Positions 1 to 9,029 of a DNA stretch of 64,000 nucleotides are shown here, piece after piece. The translations under genes were made by a program, and so were the position numbers. The DNA is from Hyphomicrobiales bacterium (GTDB lineage: Bacteria > Pseudomonadota > Alphaproteobacteria > Rhizobiales > Beijerinckiaceae): positions 1 to 64,000 of the forward strand of contig JAFBAS010000059.1 in NCBI GenBank assembly GCA_019247605.1, in the 5' to 3' direction. The notes below the pieces were generated by a model. The model made no database searches. It had not been told where the DNA came from and saw only the letters and a list, made by a program, of their open reading frames with translations. Within the stretch, counting starts at the first letter, position 1; each line of letters opens with the position of its first letter.

Positions 1-676
1 GATGCAGCTCGGCTTCATCGCGAAATCGGCGGGCGCGGATTCGCTTCAATGAGACCGAGGCGCGCGGGCCTCGGATGCGACCGTAGGGACCACTCAAGGG
101 GCTTCCGTGGACCCGCTTCAATGAGGCCGAGGCGCGCGGGCCACGGATACACACCGGACCGTGGGGGATCTCTCGACCAGGTGATCTCGCTTCAATGAGG
201 CCGAGGCGCGCGGGCCTCGGATGCGCCGCCCTCGGCGGGCTTCAGCACAAACCAGGTGATGGCTTCAATGAGGCCGAGGCGCGCGGGCCTCGGATGCCTC
301 GCCGGATGGAAAGCCGGCGCACGCGCGATGCAAGCTTCAATGAGGGCGAGGCGCGCGGGCCTCGGATGCATTGCGGGCCTGAAGCGTTCGTATCAGGAAG
401 CGGCGGGCTTCAATGAGGCCGAGGCGCGCGGGCTCGGATGCGAGGCCTTTACCCGCCGCGCCGGCGACCAAAGGCATCGGCGTCACCGCGCTCACGCTTC
501 AATGAGGCCGAGGCGCGCGGGCCTCGGATGCCCCCTAAGCTTGTCAATGATGCTGGTGACGCGGTTGATCCTTCAATGAGGCCGAGGCGCGCGGGCCTCG
601 GATGCGCCGTGATAACCTGATTGGCGATGCCAATTCCCTCGCTTCAATGAGGCCAAGGCGCGCGAGCCTCGGATGC
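1..676 (-). CRISPR. Type I-G (I-U) CRISPR array, nine complete repeats plus the end of a tenth
   Basis: Complete repeats lie at 43-78, 115-150, 189-224, 262-297, 334-369, 407-441, 496-531, 570-605 and 641-676; bases 1-5 are the tail of another, so the array continues to the left. Spacers are 35-38 nt except 442-495, which is 54 nt. On the minus strand each repeat ends in ATTGAAGC, which resembles the usual 8-nt crRNA 5' handle of type I systems, and holds a CCGAGGC/GCCTCGG hairpin. Transcription is therefore inferred from right to left, the same strand as the cas operon, with the leader right of 676. Repeats are unusually variable: substitutions at 43-78, 115-150, 334-369, 570-605 and 641-676, and a one-base deletion at 407-441. 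Confidence 0.97.
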
Positions 677-1009
677 AGCCACCTTATAACACCTTCGCTC
701 GTAACGCGATTCTGTCGCGTTTTCGAGGAGTGAATCGCCAGGGCGGTCGAGTGGTGGGCAACTCTCACGTCGAGCTTGTTCACAATGTCAAAAAGCAGCA
801 CCCCTTCAAAGGGTTGGCCTTATTCGAGCGGGTCCCGCCTTCTCGTCGGCACAACGGCGGTCGAACGCCAGAGGCGGAGGCCAGGCCAAGATAGGCTTGG
901 CCAAGATAGACGCGGCCAAGTTATTGCGCTTCGCAAAACCCCCGACCTTGTATAAGGGGCGCACTTCGGATTATATGTTCGGTTAAACTCACCAAACTTC
1001 TATGAGGCA
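677..1009 (-). promoter_or_regulatory. Probable CRISPR leader region, no gene
   Basis: This 333-bp stretch lies between the leader-proximal repeat and the solitary repeat and has no credible coding frame. On the minus strand it contains a perfect TATAAT (plus coordinates 970-975) about 290 bp before the array, inside the spacer-like part of the solitary repeat unit, and a second AT-rich box (TTATAAGG) just before the first repeat. A direct repeat GGCCAAG(ATAG) recurs with a 15-bp period at 884-894, 899-909 and 914-920. A hairpin-plus-T stretch around 793-818 on the minus strand could be a weak terminator. Leader function is inferred from position and orientation. Confidence 0.6.
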
Positions 1010-1062
1010 GCTTCAATGAGGCCGAAGCGCGCCCCAACGCCAAGAAAAGCACAGTTCACCGC
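974..1062 (-). ncRNA. CreA-like crRNA: solitary degenerate repeat plus spacer-like sequence
   Basis: Read on the minus strand, 1032-1010 is the 3' two thirds of a CRISPR repeat (22 of 23 positions, one change at 1026) including the intact ATTGAAGC handle. The 5' arm of the hairpin is lost; only a weak, mostly G-U stem remains possible. The next bases (1009 downward) form a spacer-like segment starting TGCCTCATAGAAGTTTGGTG. It matches the promoter of the divergent tRNA gene (see 1078-1101). This is the organisation of CreA RNAs, which guide Cascade to repress a neighbouring toxic RNA. The 5' end is guessed from a CATAAT box (plus 1074-1079) on the minus strand; the 3' end assumes a 36-nt spacer part. 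Confidence 0.72.
1010..1032 (-). repeat. Solitary degenerate CRISPR repeat outside the array
   Basis: Bases 1010-1032 match the array repeat at 22 of 23 positions. Beyond 1032 the match stops abruptly, so the 13 bases forming the 5' end of the transcribed repeat are missing. It lies 333 bp from the nearest array repeat. Retention of the handle and loss of the hairpin arm fits the repeat degeneration described for CreA-type guide RNAs; a simple leftover of an older array is the alternative. Confidence 0.9.
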
Positions 1063-1074
1063 GTCACGCAAGCA

Positions 1075-1101
1075 TTATGACTAATAGAATGTTTGGTTAG
1101 T
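1075..1101 (+). promoter_or_regulatory. Predicted Cascade target in the tRNA promoter (PAM TTA plus protospacer)
   Basis: Positions 1-12 of the solitary repeat's spacer-like segment match 1078-1089 at 10 of 12 bases, mismatched only at positions 3 and 6; position 6 is a base that type I effectors flip out. After one extra T (1090), positions 13-23 match 1091-1101 at 10 of 11. The three bases 5' of the match (1075-1077) are TTA, which fits the TTN motif reported for a type I-G system. The target covers the upstream part of the tRNA promoter, so binding would repress it. The -10 box proposed for the divergent guide RNA (1074-1079) overlaps the PAM, which suggests autoregulation. Confidence 0.75.
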
Positions 1102-1107
1102 GGATTT

Positions 1108-1116
1108 TGCTAGACT
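1108..1116 (+). promoter_or_regulatory. Putative extended -10 promoter of the suppressor tRNA
   Basis: TGCTAGACT is an extended -10 box (TGnTAnnnT) starting 42 bp before the tRNA and would give a 5' leader of roughly 25 nt. The -35 region would overlap the predicted Cascade target. A second candidate -10, TAGAAT at 1085-1090, lies inside that target. Either assignment puts the guide-matched sequence on the promoter. Confidence 0.5.
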
Positions 1117-1147
1117 CGTCCGTCATGTAAGTGTAATGGCGGACGAG
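1115..1147 (+). promoter_or_regulatory. Perfect 8-bp inverted repeat in the tRNA 5' leader
   Basis: CTCGTCCG (1115-1122) pairs with CGGACGAG (1140-1147) around a 17-base loop, ending two bases before the tRNA 5' end. It could guide 5' processing or block alternative folding. The loop contains a minimal AUG-UAA reading frame (1125-1130), whose significance is unknown. Confidence 0.6.
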
Positions 1148-1149
1148 CT

Positions 1150-1239
1150 GGCCCCGTGGCGGAAACGGTAGACGCAGCGGACTCTAAATCCGCAGCCCTC
1201 ACACGGCATTTGTCGGTTCGAATCCGACGGGGGCCACCA
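1150..1239 (+). tRNA. tRNA-Leu-like amber suppressor, anticodon CUA
   Basis: This is a complete class II cloverleaf with an encoded CCA (1237-1239). The acceptor is 1150-1156 with 1229-1235, six pairs plus one G-G mismatch at 7-66. The D-arm carries GCG...CGC and the GG of 18-19. The anticodon stem is 1177-1181 with 1189-1193. The loop 1182-1188 is CTCTAAA, so bases 34-36 (1184-1186) are CUA, complementary to UAG. An 18-base variable region (1194-1211) contains a GCC/GGC stem. The T-arm (1212-1228) has loop TTCGAAT, and the discriminator is A73. The D-arm sequence, long variable arm and A73 fit tRNA-Leu; the anticodon loop matches classical amber suppressors such as supF. Charging with leucine is an inference. 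Its place between cas genes and array, under a CRISPR-guide-matched promoter, suggests a CreT-like toxic RNA. Confidence 0.92.
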
Positions 1240-1251
1240 GTAACCTATACC

Positions 1252-1268
1252 AGCGTGAGCACGCTTTT
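1252..1268 (+). terminator. Intrinsic terminator of the tRNA gene
   Basis: AGCGT (1252-1256) and ACGCT (1261-1265) form a 5-bp stem with loop GAGC, running into TTTT, 13 bp after the tRNA. There is no T-run on the other strand, so it serves the tRNA and not csb2. It makes the tRNA a free-standing transcription unit. Confidence 0.8.
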
Positions 1269-1296
1269 CCTATAGCAAATTAGGTGCAGGGGGCAC

Positions 1297-3510
1297 TCAG
1301 CCCGCCGAATGAGGGAATTTAGCCGCTGCGAAGAGCCCACCCCCGAAATGGCGATCACGGCCGAGAAGGATCGGCCCTCCTGTCGCACTGTGGAAGATAA
1401 GCCTTGCGAGGCCGAATAACCCAGCGCCCGACTTGGCGGAAGTCTTAATGACCTCAATTCGCGGTCGGGGCAATCCGGCGCGGCGACACTCGGCGAGAAG
1501 ATCGGCCTCGAGCGCGGCCGCCGCATCGTTGAGCTTCGCATGGCGCGTCACCCGATAGGGTGTGAGGCTTTCCCACGAAGACGACGCGGCGAACAAAGGA
1601 TCATCGGAAAGGTCGAAAGTGCCTGGCGCGAGAGCGAGCCTTCCGGCCGCGCCGGCGCGCAATTCATAAAATCCGTCGAGCGCCTCGTCTAATAGCTGAA
1701 GGTTCTCGCGTTCACCTTTTGAGGCCTGCCGCCGTTCGAGGAGATGCGGCGCGACGATCAATAATCGCTTACGAGGCGCGTCGGACACGAAGGCGAGATG
1801 CTCGTGTCCACCCAGGCGCGATGGAGCGCCATCGGCCGCATGGCCGGTGAAAAAGGCCGGCAGCTCTTTGCGCTCCCCTATCTTGGCCTGCACACGCGAC
1901 ATGACGGCGCGGCGAAGCGCCCGCGTGAGCGCAAGATGATCCTCGGCCGTGAGCCCTCCGATGATCGCGAAAGCGAACGCCCCTTCGCCGCGCCGGTCGG
2001 GCGCCATGAGGCCAAGCCCGAGATACCGCCCGTCGCCGATGAGAAGAGGGCCGGGAACAGGCTTCGTGAAAGCGAGCTCGACATGCCAGAGCCGTTCCTT
2101 GGCGAAGCGCGTGCCGGGAGCGAAAGCCTCCGCGCGTTCTCCCTTGGCCTCGAAAGGCTCGCGCTGAACGCGGATCGCCTGCAAGGGCGTGTCGATCCCC
2201 GCATGGCGCAAAGCCTGGCGCAAGGCGGCTTCCGCCGCCGCATGCTCGCGCAATCGCTCCGTCGCGCCTTTGGCCTCTTCGCGCATGCGCCGCGGATCGA
2301 TGCGACGGCGTGCGGCGCGCTCGGAAAGCGCCACCGGCGTGACGCTTCGCCAAAGGCGCGCGGGAGCGACATCCCCGATGCCGTAATGCGCAAGCATCGT
2401 GCGCTCTTCGGACGGGACCAGCTCGGCGCCACCTTCCGGCACCTCACCGGTCTTCGGATCGAAGTCGAGCGCGAGTCCGGAAAACGCCCAGGCGATATCC
2501 TCGGCCGCGATCGGACAATCCGGTGGCACCGTCACGAGCACGCGCCTCACGGAGCGCTGGGTCTTGGCGTGGCCGATGGATGGTAAGGGCGTGATGCGAA
2601 TGCGCCGGGCCTTGTCGGCCTCCGTGGCGTCTCGAGCGATGAAGACACGGTCGATGACAGGCGCGCTATTCGGCAACGCCTTTTTCAGCCGCTCTGCCGC
2701 TCGATCCCTGATTGTCTCGGTCAACGCGACGATGCGCGCGAGGGCCTGAGGCGCGAAAGCACCCGACCTCTCCGCACCGAATTTCACGATATCGTAGAGG
2801 AGAAAAACAGCCGGGCTGTTGTAGGGAACTTGCCGGAAGCTCGGCTTTGGCGCCTGGGAAAAAAGCAGACGCGATTTCTTGCCTTCGCCGACCCTCTTGA
2901 AGCGCCCGCGTGTCTTCTCGAAGCGCGCCACCAGGCTCGCGAGCGAGCCTGGATGTGGCGAAGAGAGCGCCTCGCCGCTGCTATGTTCGCTCGGGTGCCA
3001 TGAAATGCGGCCATGCTGGCGAAGCCGGGCGTTAGTCTCGCGCTCGGCGAGAATCTCGCCTTTCGCCCAGGCCATATCGACCCCGCGGCCGAGCTGATAA
3101 AGGCGATCGGCGATTTCGCAAATCACTTGCGCATGCTGATCGGCGTCCGCGCCAGGCTCGAAGGTCCACGCATAAACCAACGAAGTGGCCGGGTCGAAAA
3201 ACCGAGGGCGAATGATCTTGCCGGTGCGGACTTCGCCGACCCTCGCGGGATCACCACCGACCGCGTCGAGATCATTGTTCGGAACGAATGTTTTGTAACC
3301 CCGCCCCGCAAGGGCAGGAGGAGCGGCGATTTCAGGCGGCGCAAGGCCTTCGAGCCAACGCAGAGATTCGGCCATGGGGCCGGGCAGTGTTGCCCCACGC
3401 GCCGCGCCCGCGACGAGCGCCTGAAAGAAGCGCGCGGGCGATGGCGGCCACTCTCCGCTGCCGTGATAGCTACCGTCGTGGAACTGAACGGAGATAAGAA
3501 GGCTGGCCAT
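1297..3510 (-). CDS. csb2: Type I-G CRISPR protein Csb2 (Cas5-Cas6 fusion, GSU0054 family)
   Basis: A 737-residue protein opening with a RAMP-type strand and the family's FHDGSYHGSGEWPPSPARFFQALVAG segment shape (residues about 9-35), and ending with the glycine-rich HFGGGLF motif near the C terminus. Family knowledge: Csb2 joins a Cas5-like domain and a Cas6-like nuclease, so it probably processes the crRNA precursor and caps the 5' handle in the effector complex. It is the last gene of the operon; its ATG lies 4 bp past the csb1 TGA (3515-3517), so the two are translationally coupled. It ends in TGA, about 30 bp from the tRNA terminator on the opposite strand. Assignment to the family is firm; the domain split is inferred. 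Confidence 0.92.
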   Translation of the reverse strand: MASLLISVQFHDGSYHGSGEWPPSPARFFQALVAGAARGATLPGPMAESLRWLEGLAPPEIAAPPALAGRGYKTFVPNNDLDAVGGDPARVGEVRTGKIIRPRFFDPATSLVYAWTFEPGADADQHAQVICEIADRLYQLGRGVDMAWAKGEILAERETNARLRQHGRISWHPSEHSSGEALSSPHPGSLASLVARFEKTRGRFKRVGEGKKSRLLFSQAPKPSFRQVPYNSPAVFLLYDIVKFGAERSGAFAPQALARIVALTETIRDRAAERLKKALPNSAPVIDRVFIARDATEADKARRIRITPLPSIGHAKTQRSVRRVLVTVPPDCPIAAEDIAWAFSGLALDFDPKTGEVPEGGAELVPSEERTMLAHYGIGDVAPARLWRSVTPVALSERAARRRIDPRRMREEAKGATERLREHAAAEAALRQALRHAGIDTPLQAIRVQREPFEAKGERAEAFAPGTRFAKERLWHVELAFTKPVPGPLLIGDGRYLGLGLMAPDRRGEGAFAFAIIGGLTAEDHLALTRALRRAVMSRVQAKIGERKELPAFFTGHAADGAPSRLGGHEHLAFVSDAPRKRLLIVAPHLLERRQASKGERENLQLLDEALDGFYELRAGAAGRLALAPGTFDLSDDPLFAASSSWESLTPYRVTRHAKLNDAAAALEADLLAECRRAGLPRPRIEVIKTSAKSGAGLFGLARLIFHSATGGPILLGRDRHFGGGLFAAAKFPHSAG

Positions 3511-3514
3511 GAGC

Positions 3515-5483
<1,969 letters not shown>

Positions 5484-5484
<1 letters not shown>

Positions 5485-8378
5485 CAGGAGACCCCCGCTT
5501 CCGCCACCGCTGACGGGGCATCCTCTCCCCTGTCGCTCGCATCATTGTCACGGGAAGCCTGCTGATCGGCGGCACGCAAAAGGGATTCCCACCAGGCGAG
5601 ACCCCAAGGCCCCCAGCGCTTTTGAAGCCGCGCGAACCGTAGCCCGACCTCGCGCGCACGGTCTCGAAGAGCCGTGAGCGGCGCATCCTCGCAGCCACGC
5701 TCTTCGATCACGGGGCGTGCATGTCCGTGATGCGCGGCGATGAGATGAAGGAGGAGGTCGCGCCAATCCTCGGGCAAGGCATCGATCCGTTTTCGCACTT
5801 CCGGCCGAAGCTGTTTGGCGGCTTCGGTCGCCGGTTCGAAAACGGCGAGCGACCCGAACTCATGACGATACCCGTCGAGAACCTTGTGGTCGATCGGCCC
5901 GCGCGTCTTGGCGAGTGGCCCCGATAAACCGTGCTTCCTGGCGTCACGCTCCGCCCGGAAGGCTCGTTGCCAGGGCGGCGCTTTCTTGCCCTCATCATGA
6001 AGGCATGCCGCAAGCACCAACACCTCGACGGCGATGCCGGAAAGGCCGAGCCTCGCGGCTATTTCGCGGATTTTTCGTTCGGCGAGGCTTTGGTGATCGG
6101 CAAGCGTCTGCGGTTTGGAGATCGCGCGCCCTTCCTCGCTTTGCGCGACACTCTTGAAATGCTCGACGACGAGCCATCTGACGGGATCGCCATCGGCATC
6201 CCGGCTGAGGACAAAATCATCCTCGACACGCCATTCGGTTTCATTCGTCTCGTTTTCGCGCGTCGTCATTCGTACGCGGAACTTGACCTTTTCCCGCCAA
6301 CCTTCATCGGGCTCGTCAGCGGTTGAGGGTTGAGTGTCCTCTCCGTCCTCGAGCAAGCCGTCCGTCAAGCCGCCGAAGCGAGCATCGACGATGAGGATTT
6401 TTCCTACGAGACCATCGTGAAAATCCTCAACCGCCCTGCCTTTGCGCTCCTGCGCAAGCTGACCAAGCGTCAAGGATTTTTCGTATTCGGCGCTCGCCGA
6501 AAGGATCAGGACGACGATATCGTCGCGCCGCAACTCGCTCGCAGGCTCCGGAACCCTTACGCGAACCTCTTCGTCCCCTTCGGGCAATTCTTCGGCGCCG
6601 CTCGGCTCGATAATTTTTCTTGGGGCCTTTCGCTGGAGCAGGGTCGCGGCTCGCTTCCGAAGCCAGTCGGCTACACGAAACGCCTCGGTTTCCAGCTTCT
6701 CGATTTCAAGCGGCGGGGCGGCACCGAAGAATTCGTTTGTTTCCTTCTTGCTCGCAAGACTTGGCCGGCCACGATCGTCAACATGGAGCGGTAGATATTT
6801 GCGCCACACCACAGTCGTCTGTACTTGTGGCTCAAACCAGCCGCGCAACCAGGGTGCGATTTCCGGTCGGCCGGTGTGGTTTTCGAGCGAGGTCATCGAC
6901 CAAACCTCGGCGAGCGCGCGTGTCATCGCCGGATGCAGAGGTTCGGGCGTCGAGGCCTCCTTGATTGTGCGTTGGCCGACTTGCTCGCGCAATTCGAGAA
7001 GCGCCGCGGGTCCGCCCTTTCCGTCAAGATCGGCTTCGATCTTTCCGAGAAGCGCTCGCGTCGCGGTGAGCCGCCCTTTGCGAACCTCGTCCTTCTCGAT
7101 CCCCGACGTGTCGAATACCACCACCTCGGCCTTGCGGGATTCGCCGCCGCGCCGATTGACGCGCCCCAGGCGTTGCACCATGCGCTCCCATGGCGCCAAA
7201 TCGCAGACCATGTGATCGGCGTCGACATCGACGCCCACCTCACCGGCCGAAGTCGCGACGAGGAATGCGGGCTTATCGGCTGGCGGTGCGTTGCCCGTGA
7301 AGCCGAGCTTTTCGAGGCTCATGGCAACTTCATCGCGTTCGTGCACCCGGCGAGCACCGACGAGGAGTTCCGGCGCATGAATCTCGATCTTCTCGCGCCC
7401 GGATTTCTTGTCCCCTTTGGCGAGCGCCTCGATCGCTTCCGCCACCCCCTGCGCGCTCGGGCCTCCGCCATCGTCTCTTTTTTCCCGTCGGTTGCAGAAG
7501 ACGACGACGCGCGAGGGCGCGCCCTTCGTCGCCAGCGCAAACGCGGTTTCGGCGAGCTGCTTGTCGGGATTCTTCTCGGCCAGCGGCTCGACGCGTAGTT
7601 GCTTCTGGGCGTTGAGCCGCAGGGAAGCCACGTCATCGCCCCGGTCCTCCTCTTCAAGCCCGAAGGTGGTGCGGCCGTGAACGGGCCATTCGCGCTGCGT
7701 CGCGGAAAGAGGCAGGACGACGAAGCGCGGCAATGGTGTTCGGTCCTTCGGCCAAAGTGAAGGATCTCTCTCGATCGTCCGCAAAAGATCGGCGAAAGGC
7801 GGAACGAGATGGGCTTCGTCGAGAACCAAGAGCGTATCGACGCCGAGCAAGCCCGCATGAAAAGGGCGCATCTTGCGCGAGACGCCGTAACCTTCGAAGA
7901 GGAGCCGTGACCCGATCATGTCGACCGTGCCGACGATGATGGCCGGCGCTGAGGGATCCGCAAGCCACTCGCGGTTGTCGACATGCGCGCCGCGCAGCGT
8001 CGAAATGGGGAGCGCGCCTTCGCGAAGGCCAAGCCGCTCCTTGAGATGTCCGGCGCTGCCCTGAAGGTTTTTGCGGAGCTTCTCGGCCTCCGCGGTCGCC
8101 TGGTCGACCACGGCGCGCCGGTCCACCACATACACCAATCGCCTCGGTATTGCGTTTAGCGCATCTTTGCTCGCGAAAGCGCGCGCGAGGAGCCAGATCG
8201 GCATGACCGAGGTTTTCCCTAACCCGGTCGGCAAATCGAGTGAGGCGGGAATCTTTCCGAGAACAAATTGCTCAAAGAGCCGCTGCTGCCATCGCATCGG
8301 CGAATGGCCCGTCAGCAGGGCAAAGCTTTCGGAAAACAAATTCAGGCTACTCATCTTTGAGCCGATCCCCAGCGGCAT
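5484..8378 (-). CDS. cas3: Type I-G CRISPR helicase-nuclease Cas3 with C-terminal HD domain
   Basis: A 964-residue protein with the helicase at the N terminus: Walker A PTGLGKT near residue 51, LVLDEAHL near 185, and motif VI QRLGRVNRRG near 404. The HD nuclease follows at the C terminus, with CLHDEGKK near 794 and a later AAHHGHARP. This order (helicase then HD) is the reverse of most Cas3 proteins and is characteristic of type I-U/I-G. It unwinds and degrades DNA bound by the Csb1/Csb2/Csb3 complex. It is the first gene of the operon. The upstream start is used here; the in-frame ATG at 8354 (MSSLNLF), preceded by GGGGAT, is a credible alternative. Ends in TGA. Confidence 0.93.
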
Positions 8379-8568: not shown

Positions 8569-8738
8569 CGTCCGAAACCGTATGCCGAGTTGGCAGTGAC
8601 GAATTTCGGCTCAGGGAAGTTCTTATACGTGGGTTTACCGGAGTCCCCGGGAACGCGCAATCTCGCCCCGACATGCCGCATTGAATTGTCCGTCTTTTTG
8701 CCGTGCATCATCTAGATTGGTGCAAAGTAGGTGCAACA

Positions 8739-9029
8739 ATATCGGCAAATGCCACGAGCAGGTCGCGCGACGAACGCCTGGAAGTGCGAATCTCCCGCGA
8801 CCAGAAAACCTTGTTCCAACGGGCTGCCGAGTTGCATGGGCGCACGCTCGCCGACTTCGTAATCACGAGCGTGCAAGATGCAGCTATGCGCGTGATCGAA
8901 GAAGCGCAGTCCATCAGGCTCGGCGAGGAAGACAGCCGAGCCTTTGCCGAAGCGTTGCTCAACTCGCGCGAGCCGAATGCGAGGCTCAAGAAGGCGGCGC
9001 AGCGATATTTAAAACTGACGGGTGGCTGA
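8739..9029 (+). pseudogene. TacA-like (DUF1778) antitoxin with a lost start codon
   Basis: The frame encodes SANATSRSRDERLEVRIS followed by QRAAELHGRTLADFVITS, the ribbon-helix-helix core of DUF1778/TacA antitoxins, and the family's SRAFAEALLNSREPN tail segment that caps the GNAT toxin. Relatives start with ATG where 8739-8741 here reads ATA, with a GTAGGTG ribosome-binding-like stretch just upstream. An in-frame ATG exists at 8703, adding 12 unrelated residues, so the protein may still be made. The partner toxin downstream is truncated (see 9042). The module looks like debris beside the cas operon. Confidence 0.65.

Follow-up and report, generated by a model that had tools for sequence, protein, structure and literature searches.

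The window, which is the whole stretch of DNA that was analysed (64,000 nucleotides), carries a gene for a tRNA-Leu-like tRNA with the anticodon CUA, placed between an intact type I-G CRISPR effector operon and its array. It adjoins a creA-like element whose guide partly matches a PAM-flanked site upstream of the tRNA gene. With moderate confidence, the whole is read as a CreTA (type VIII) module of type I-G in which CreT is an amber suppressor tRNA-Leu(CUA). The architecture of this module is well supported by the sequence. The function proposed for it is put forward more tentatively: the CRISPR effector may restrain a toxin that adds a decoding function, a suppressor tRNA disabling UAG termination. 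The immune complex would probably keep the harmful tRNA off, and the cell could not safely lose its immune system.

Table 1. Features of the type I-G locus and of the proposed module. The features are sorted according to their positions in the window.
Feature	Positions	Strand	Description
CRISPR array	1..676	-	Type I-G; leader end 676; appears to run on into contig C149
psi-R2	940..975	-	Degenerate second repeat; only the start TAATCCGAAG resembles GCATCCGAGG; weak
psi-S	976..1009	-	Spacer-like 34-nt guide TGCCTCATAGAAGTTTGGTGAGTTTAACCGAACA
psi-R1	1010..1045	-	Ectopic repeat copy outside the array; keeps the 8-nt handle ATTGAAGC
PAM and target	1075..1111	+	PAM TTA (1075-1077); 34-nt protospacer-like target of the creA guide (1078-1111)
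Promoter candidate of the tRNA	1107..1137	+	Best candidate; TTGCTA (1107-1112), 19 nt, TGTAAT (1132-1137); weak consensus
Inverted repeat	1115..1147		12 bp, CTCGTCCGTCAT/ATGGCGGACGAG; directly upstream of the tRNA, overlaps the -10 candidate; z -6.0
tRNA gene (proposed creT)	1150..1239	+	tRNA-Leu-like, CCA encoded, anticodon CUA; ARAGORN, Rfam, tRNA-Leu alignment
Terminator-like hairpin	1252..1269	+	AGCGT-GAGC-ACGCT (stem-loop 1252-1265), then T run
csb2	1297..3510	-	Cas5-Cas6 fusion, 737 aa; intact
cas7g (csb1)	3515..4609	-	Intact
cas8g2	4606..5484	-	Intact
cas3g	5484..8378	-	Intact

The tRNA gene is the only one found by ARAGORN in the window (90 nt, anticodon cta). It scores 50.2 bits against the Rfam tRNA model (cut-off 29). 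The anticodon loop is C-T-CTA-A-A; A73 and an encoded CCA are present, and the long variable region includes a 3-bp stem. The class II, Leu-like CUA tRNA described in the initial annotation is therefore borne out by the ARAGORN call, the Rfam score, the loop CTCTAAA, A73 and CCA. The four characters of a Leu amber suppressor (CUA anticodon, Leu body, A73, long variable arm) are found together in this gene. The label 'Pyl' given by ARAGORN is determined by the anticodon CUA alone; a tRNA-Pyl identity is rejected on shape (90 nt, long variable arm, Leu-like). All positions that are invariant among the aligned tRNA-Leu genes of related genomes and of the genome itself are kept. One nearly invariant Leu position, G66, is altered, so that the base of the acceptor stem has a G7-G66 mismatch, which may weaken the tRNA.

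Forty-three tRNAs were detected genome-wide. The CUA tRNA is a single-copy gene, no second CUA tRNA being present among the typed tRNAs of these 43, and its Rfam score is the lowest of them all. Its body is nearer to tRNA-Leu(UAA) and tRNA-Leu(CAA) of other genera of the family than to the tRNA-Leu(CAA) of its own genome (BLAST identity: 74% to the latter, 82-85% for the best family members), and the gene was therefore probably brought in. Upstream, the TTGCTA of the promoter candidate fits the distance of the -35 box in host tRNA promoters, commonly 38-44 nt from the tRNA; a stricter scan upstream of the gene gave no consensus promoter. The inverted repeat that overlaps the -10 candidate could be an operator or a leader hairpin.

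Csb2, Cas7g, Cas8g2 and Cas3g are full-length and all above the curated cut-offs, which assigns the system to type I-G; with the array on the other side of the tRNA gene, the placing of this gene inside a CRISPR locus, also made in the initial annotation, holds. Type I-G uses the PAM TTN, a 36-nt repeat and an 8-nt crRNA handle left by Csb2 (PMC9638904). The array has irregular repeats and one spacer of 53 nt. Judged from the sequence, it would be joined to contig C149, where it would adjoin a probable transaldolase gene. No Cas1 was found in the whole assembly (98.85% complete, 191 contigs). Since the effector genes are intact in an assembly of this completeness, the adaptation genes appear to have been lost and the effector kept; a gap among the 191 contigs could also account for the missing Cas1. 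Beside cas3 lies a gene for a TacA-type antitoxin (8703-9029); the ORF that follows was not recognised as its toxin partner.

Degenerate ectopic repeats flank a spacer-like sequence in this cas locus, psi-R1 being clear and psi-R2 weak. Compared with the array repeat, psi-R1 has 12 mismatches over all 36 nt and only one in the last 22 nt: its first part is degenerate, its last part near-exact with a 4-nt linker and the 8-nt handle. The last 18 nt of psi-R1 differ from the repeat at one position; no other sequence of the window outside the array comes within three differences. A canonical hairpin for psi-R1 was not predicted by RNAfold. CreTA modules typically have a degenerate first repeat (PMC9458426).

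The guide partly matches a site at the candidate promoter of the adjacent tRNA. The first 12 nt of psi-S differ from the plus strand (1078-1089) only at positions 3 and 6, the seed matches at 9 of 10 bases behind the PAM TTA, and 20 of 24 bases match over 1078-1101 with a one-base gap after position 12 (score 15). This score is reached by about 1.5 in 10,000 shuffled targets (p ~1e-4) and, with the alignment anchored at position 1 behind a TTN PAM, by none of 3000 shuffled guides; any seed and TTN match within 500 nt is found for 0.18% of shuffled guides. In the 4.7-Mb genome, a seed with at most one mismatch behind an intact PAM occurs at two sites, 1078 and one on contig C100. Position 6 is unpaired in type I complexes, and known CreA guides repress CreT by pairing beside the PAM through positions 1-5 and 7-11 (PMC8501985); a type I-F CreA represses through 17 of 20 positions (PMC10097628). 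Two features of the match speak against the CreTA reading: the seed mismatch at position 3 and the gap after position 12. So do the missing hairpin of psi-R1, the weak psi-R2, the strict promoter scan, the G7-G66 mismatch of the tRNA and, as described below, the blind scan of handle-like motifs and the mild effect of amber suppressors in E. coli. In H. hubeiense, each seed base reportedly mattered. The target ends at 1111, within the -35 candidate (1107-1112); bound Cascade would therefore cover the -35 box.

No spacer of the array is convincing as a guide for the CUA tRNA. Spacer 2 (532-569) resembles 1057-1081, beside the creA target, with neither a seed match nor a PAM (p 0.004 for one test, uncorrected for 9 spacers).

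The module is proposed to work as follows. The degenerate mini-CRISPR on the minus strand (psi-R1, psi-S and traces of psi-R2), as read from its sequence, encodes a crRNA-like guide carrying the 8-nt handle of the system itself. The guide seed would recognise the site that starts at 1078 behind the TTA, upstream of the tRNA gene, where the match is seen and binding is expected; the effector would bind without self-cleavage because the complementarity between guide and target is partial. Cascade on this site would silence the tRNA gene. Loss or mutation of Cascade, or its inhibition by an anti-CRISPR protein, would allow the tRNA to be produced, and LeuRS would add leucine to it. The released tRNA would then read UAG as Leu and put a C-terminal tail on about one sixth of the proteins, and the cost of this read-through would keep the effector genes in the population.

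Isolated copies of the repeat were sought, irrespective of targets, in the window and in 33 fetched type I-G loci. Seven were found, one of which is an array end. In four of the seven (the window, L079, L085 and L087), the guide matches at least 9 of 10 seed bases at a nearby TTN-flanked site; the stricter count is 3/6, because L085 was already known when the context filter was widened. Decoy motifs give such seed and TTN matches in about 1% of cases. In a blind scan of all handle-like motifs, seed and PAM matches were no commoner than in decoys, so that only the ectopic repeats carry a signal. Ectopic repeats with guides matching TTN-flanked neighbours are also found, in slightly different contexts, in L088 and L138. 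The ectopic guides of L085 (~143) and L138 (~6416) have TTN-flanked targets upstream of cas7 and, by sequence, look like candidates for CreR-type self-regulation in type I-G. The ectopic elements of L087 (8036-8195; target upstream of a DUF1508 ORF) and of L088 (2508-2650; target upstream of an 88-aa ORF and a possible small RNA) are candidates for CreTA or CrePA modules whose toxins would be different ones.

Since the ectopic guides of L085 and L138 match sites upstream of cas7, guides of this kind do not always control toxins, and two further observations point the same way: the matching site of L079 lies just upstream of its own ectopic repeat on the same strand, and the target in the window overlaps the probable promoter of the creA-like element (CATAAT, minus strand, 1079-1074). 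The element could then mainly regulate its own or neighbouring transcription, with the tRNA as a passenger from an integration or from a tRNA duplication. This is judged unlikely: the target also abuts the promoter region of the tRNA, which is the only downstream gene on the same strand and retains a complete Leu body as well as a terminator of its own; the start of the cas operon is 7.3 kb away; and neither a duplicated tRNA end nor a further copy is found in the genome. CreR, a guide RNA that represses cas genes, has the same guide anatomy, but it is rejected here since the target at 1078 is upstream of the tRNA whereas the cas operon begins on the opposite strand, at 8378. CrePA, with a repressed toxic protein, is rejected since the tRNA alone lies downstream of the target on the same strand before csb2, which is antisense.

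Under the CreTA reading, the free tRNA would have to be charged and to cost the cell something. Charging by LeuRS ignores the anticodon. The three TAG-ending genes cited in the initial annotation (RidA 17460, ClC 18229, M20 56810) are real, and 18 of 110 sampled genes (~16%) end in TAG; for the TAG-ending genes of the window, read-through would add 10-122 residues. In E. coli, leuX with a CUA anticodon is an efficient suppressor (PMC7969014), and a Leu CUA tRNA gives ~90% read-through of a reporter (PMC13276491). E. coli with the Leu amber suppressor supP, facing 321 TAG genes, merely grows slower (PMC7969014). The CUA tRNA would be harmful to the present host when free, because TAG use is higher in this host than in E. 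coli. The earlier proposal of a tRNA as a CRISPR-linked toxin thus gains an adjoining creA-like gene and a guide match at an upstream TTN site; its other parts (transcription, repression, charging and toxicity of the tRNA) are predicted.

The same architecture would also suit a conditional switch, a Cascade-silenced tRNA that phage anti-CRISPRs set free and whose read-through either interferes with translation in the phage or switches on a defence gene interrupted by TAG; anti-CRISPR-responsive toxins under CRISPR repression are called CrePA (review PMC12737573). Near the locus, however, no gene interrupted by TAG was identified, and csb2, cas7g, cas8g2 and cas3g all end in TGA; the switch is considered quite improbable. 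The G7-G66 mismatch, the lowest Rfam score, the irregular repeats with their 53-nt spacer and the missing Cas1 might suggest that both the tRNA copy and the array next to it have decayed and that the tRNA no longer functions. This is likewise quite improbable, since the Leu-invariant positions, the other stems, CCA and the terminator are all intact, decay is unlikely to have changed exactly the anticodon to CUA and left the anticodon stem intact, and the guide match would have to be a coincidence.

Relatives of the CUA tRNA were sought at other type I-G loci and in genomes at large. The expectation that CUA tRNAs would lie beside other type I-G operons failed: none was found near csb2 in the 32 other loci examined (17 from the same order, scanned whole; 11 from the class, scanned within 1.5 kb of csb2; 4 from the phylum). 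Type I-G is absent from three other genomes of the same genus. No relative of the module was found; it is a singleton, which is the chief weak point of the CreTA reading. The initial annotation had also held that the same CUA tRNA scattered in genomes without CRISPR would count against it. Leu-type CUA tRNAs do occur in such places, and they are rare: with the pattern used, five matches were found in 84,980 species genomes, none at a CRISPR locus. They weaken the link with CRISPR only slightly, because it is the guide match that supports this link. In 298 genomes of the family, the genes closest in DNA sequence to the CUA tRNA are ordinary tRNA-Leu genes and one Leu/Ser hybrid; plasmids and phages, searched likewise, gave tRNA-Leu-like matches only.

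The hybrid (L096, 1502-1588; genome G623, same family) combines a Leu body with an anticodon arm like that of tRNA-Ser(UGA). It would, if LeuRS charges it, place Leu at UCA codons. It is immediately preceded by a tRNA-like 3' end, and no CRISPR was seen within the 3 kb read. In viral contigs, the Leu-type CUA pattern has one match, a TAG-recoding phage. In a pair of phage-like contigs (L075 and L077), a CUA tRNA with a Leu body occurs together with in-frame TAGs in a gene resembling PolC; opposite one of these TAGs the sister contig has a Leu codon, suggesting that this phage pair reads TAG as Leu.

The module resembles the CreTA systems described in Haloarcula (I-B), Halobacterium (I-B) and Acinetobacter (I-F): a degenerate mini-CRISPR adjoins the cas genes, the promoter region of a small RNA gene has a PAM-flanked site that the guide matches in part, and the product of the toxin gene is an RNA. 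It differs from them in subtype (I-G) and in the toxin. The described CreT RNAs carry a mini-ORF that sequesters rare tRNAs, or need a hairpin start codon, whereas the candidate CreT here is itself a UAG-decoding tRNA; a CreT of the tRNA-sequestering type is rejected, a mini-ORF with strong start signals and rare codons being absent and the product being a full tRNA. The tRNA resembles E. coli supP (leuX, CAA to CUA) in its Leu body, its CUA anticodon and the Leu expected at UAG. Whereas supP arose in the laboratory by mutation of a host gene, the gene in the window is natural and additional, lies in a CRISPR locus and has a guide dedicated to it. The CUA anticodon is shared by the suppressor tRNAs of phages that recode stop codons, and the phage pair mentioned above has a Leu-body version. 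These phage tRNAs serve recoded phage genes, whereas the host of the window uses TAG as a stop and carries the gene in a CRISPR locus.

A tRNA as CreT was not found described in the open-access literature (subscription papers and preprints are outside this scope), in agreement with the earlier statement that no tRNA was known in a CRISPR-linked toxin role. If the CreTA reading is true, this would be the first tRNA as CreT, with a mode of toxicity new to toxin-antitoxin systems of every kind, and CreTA would be extended to type I-G. Read-through of TAG would provide a simple read-out for the loss of Cascade or for anti-CRISPR activity. Stop-codon suppression could then act as a genetic poison, the persistence of an effector with no detectable adaptation gene would be explained, and CRISPR systems could guard a tRNA to protect themselves from loss.
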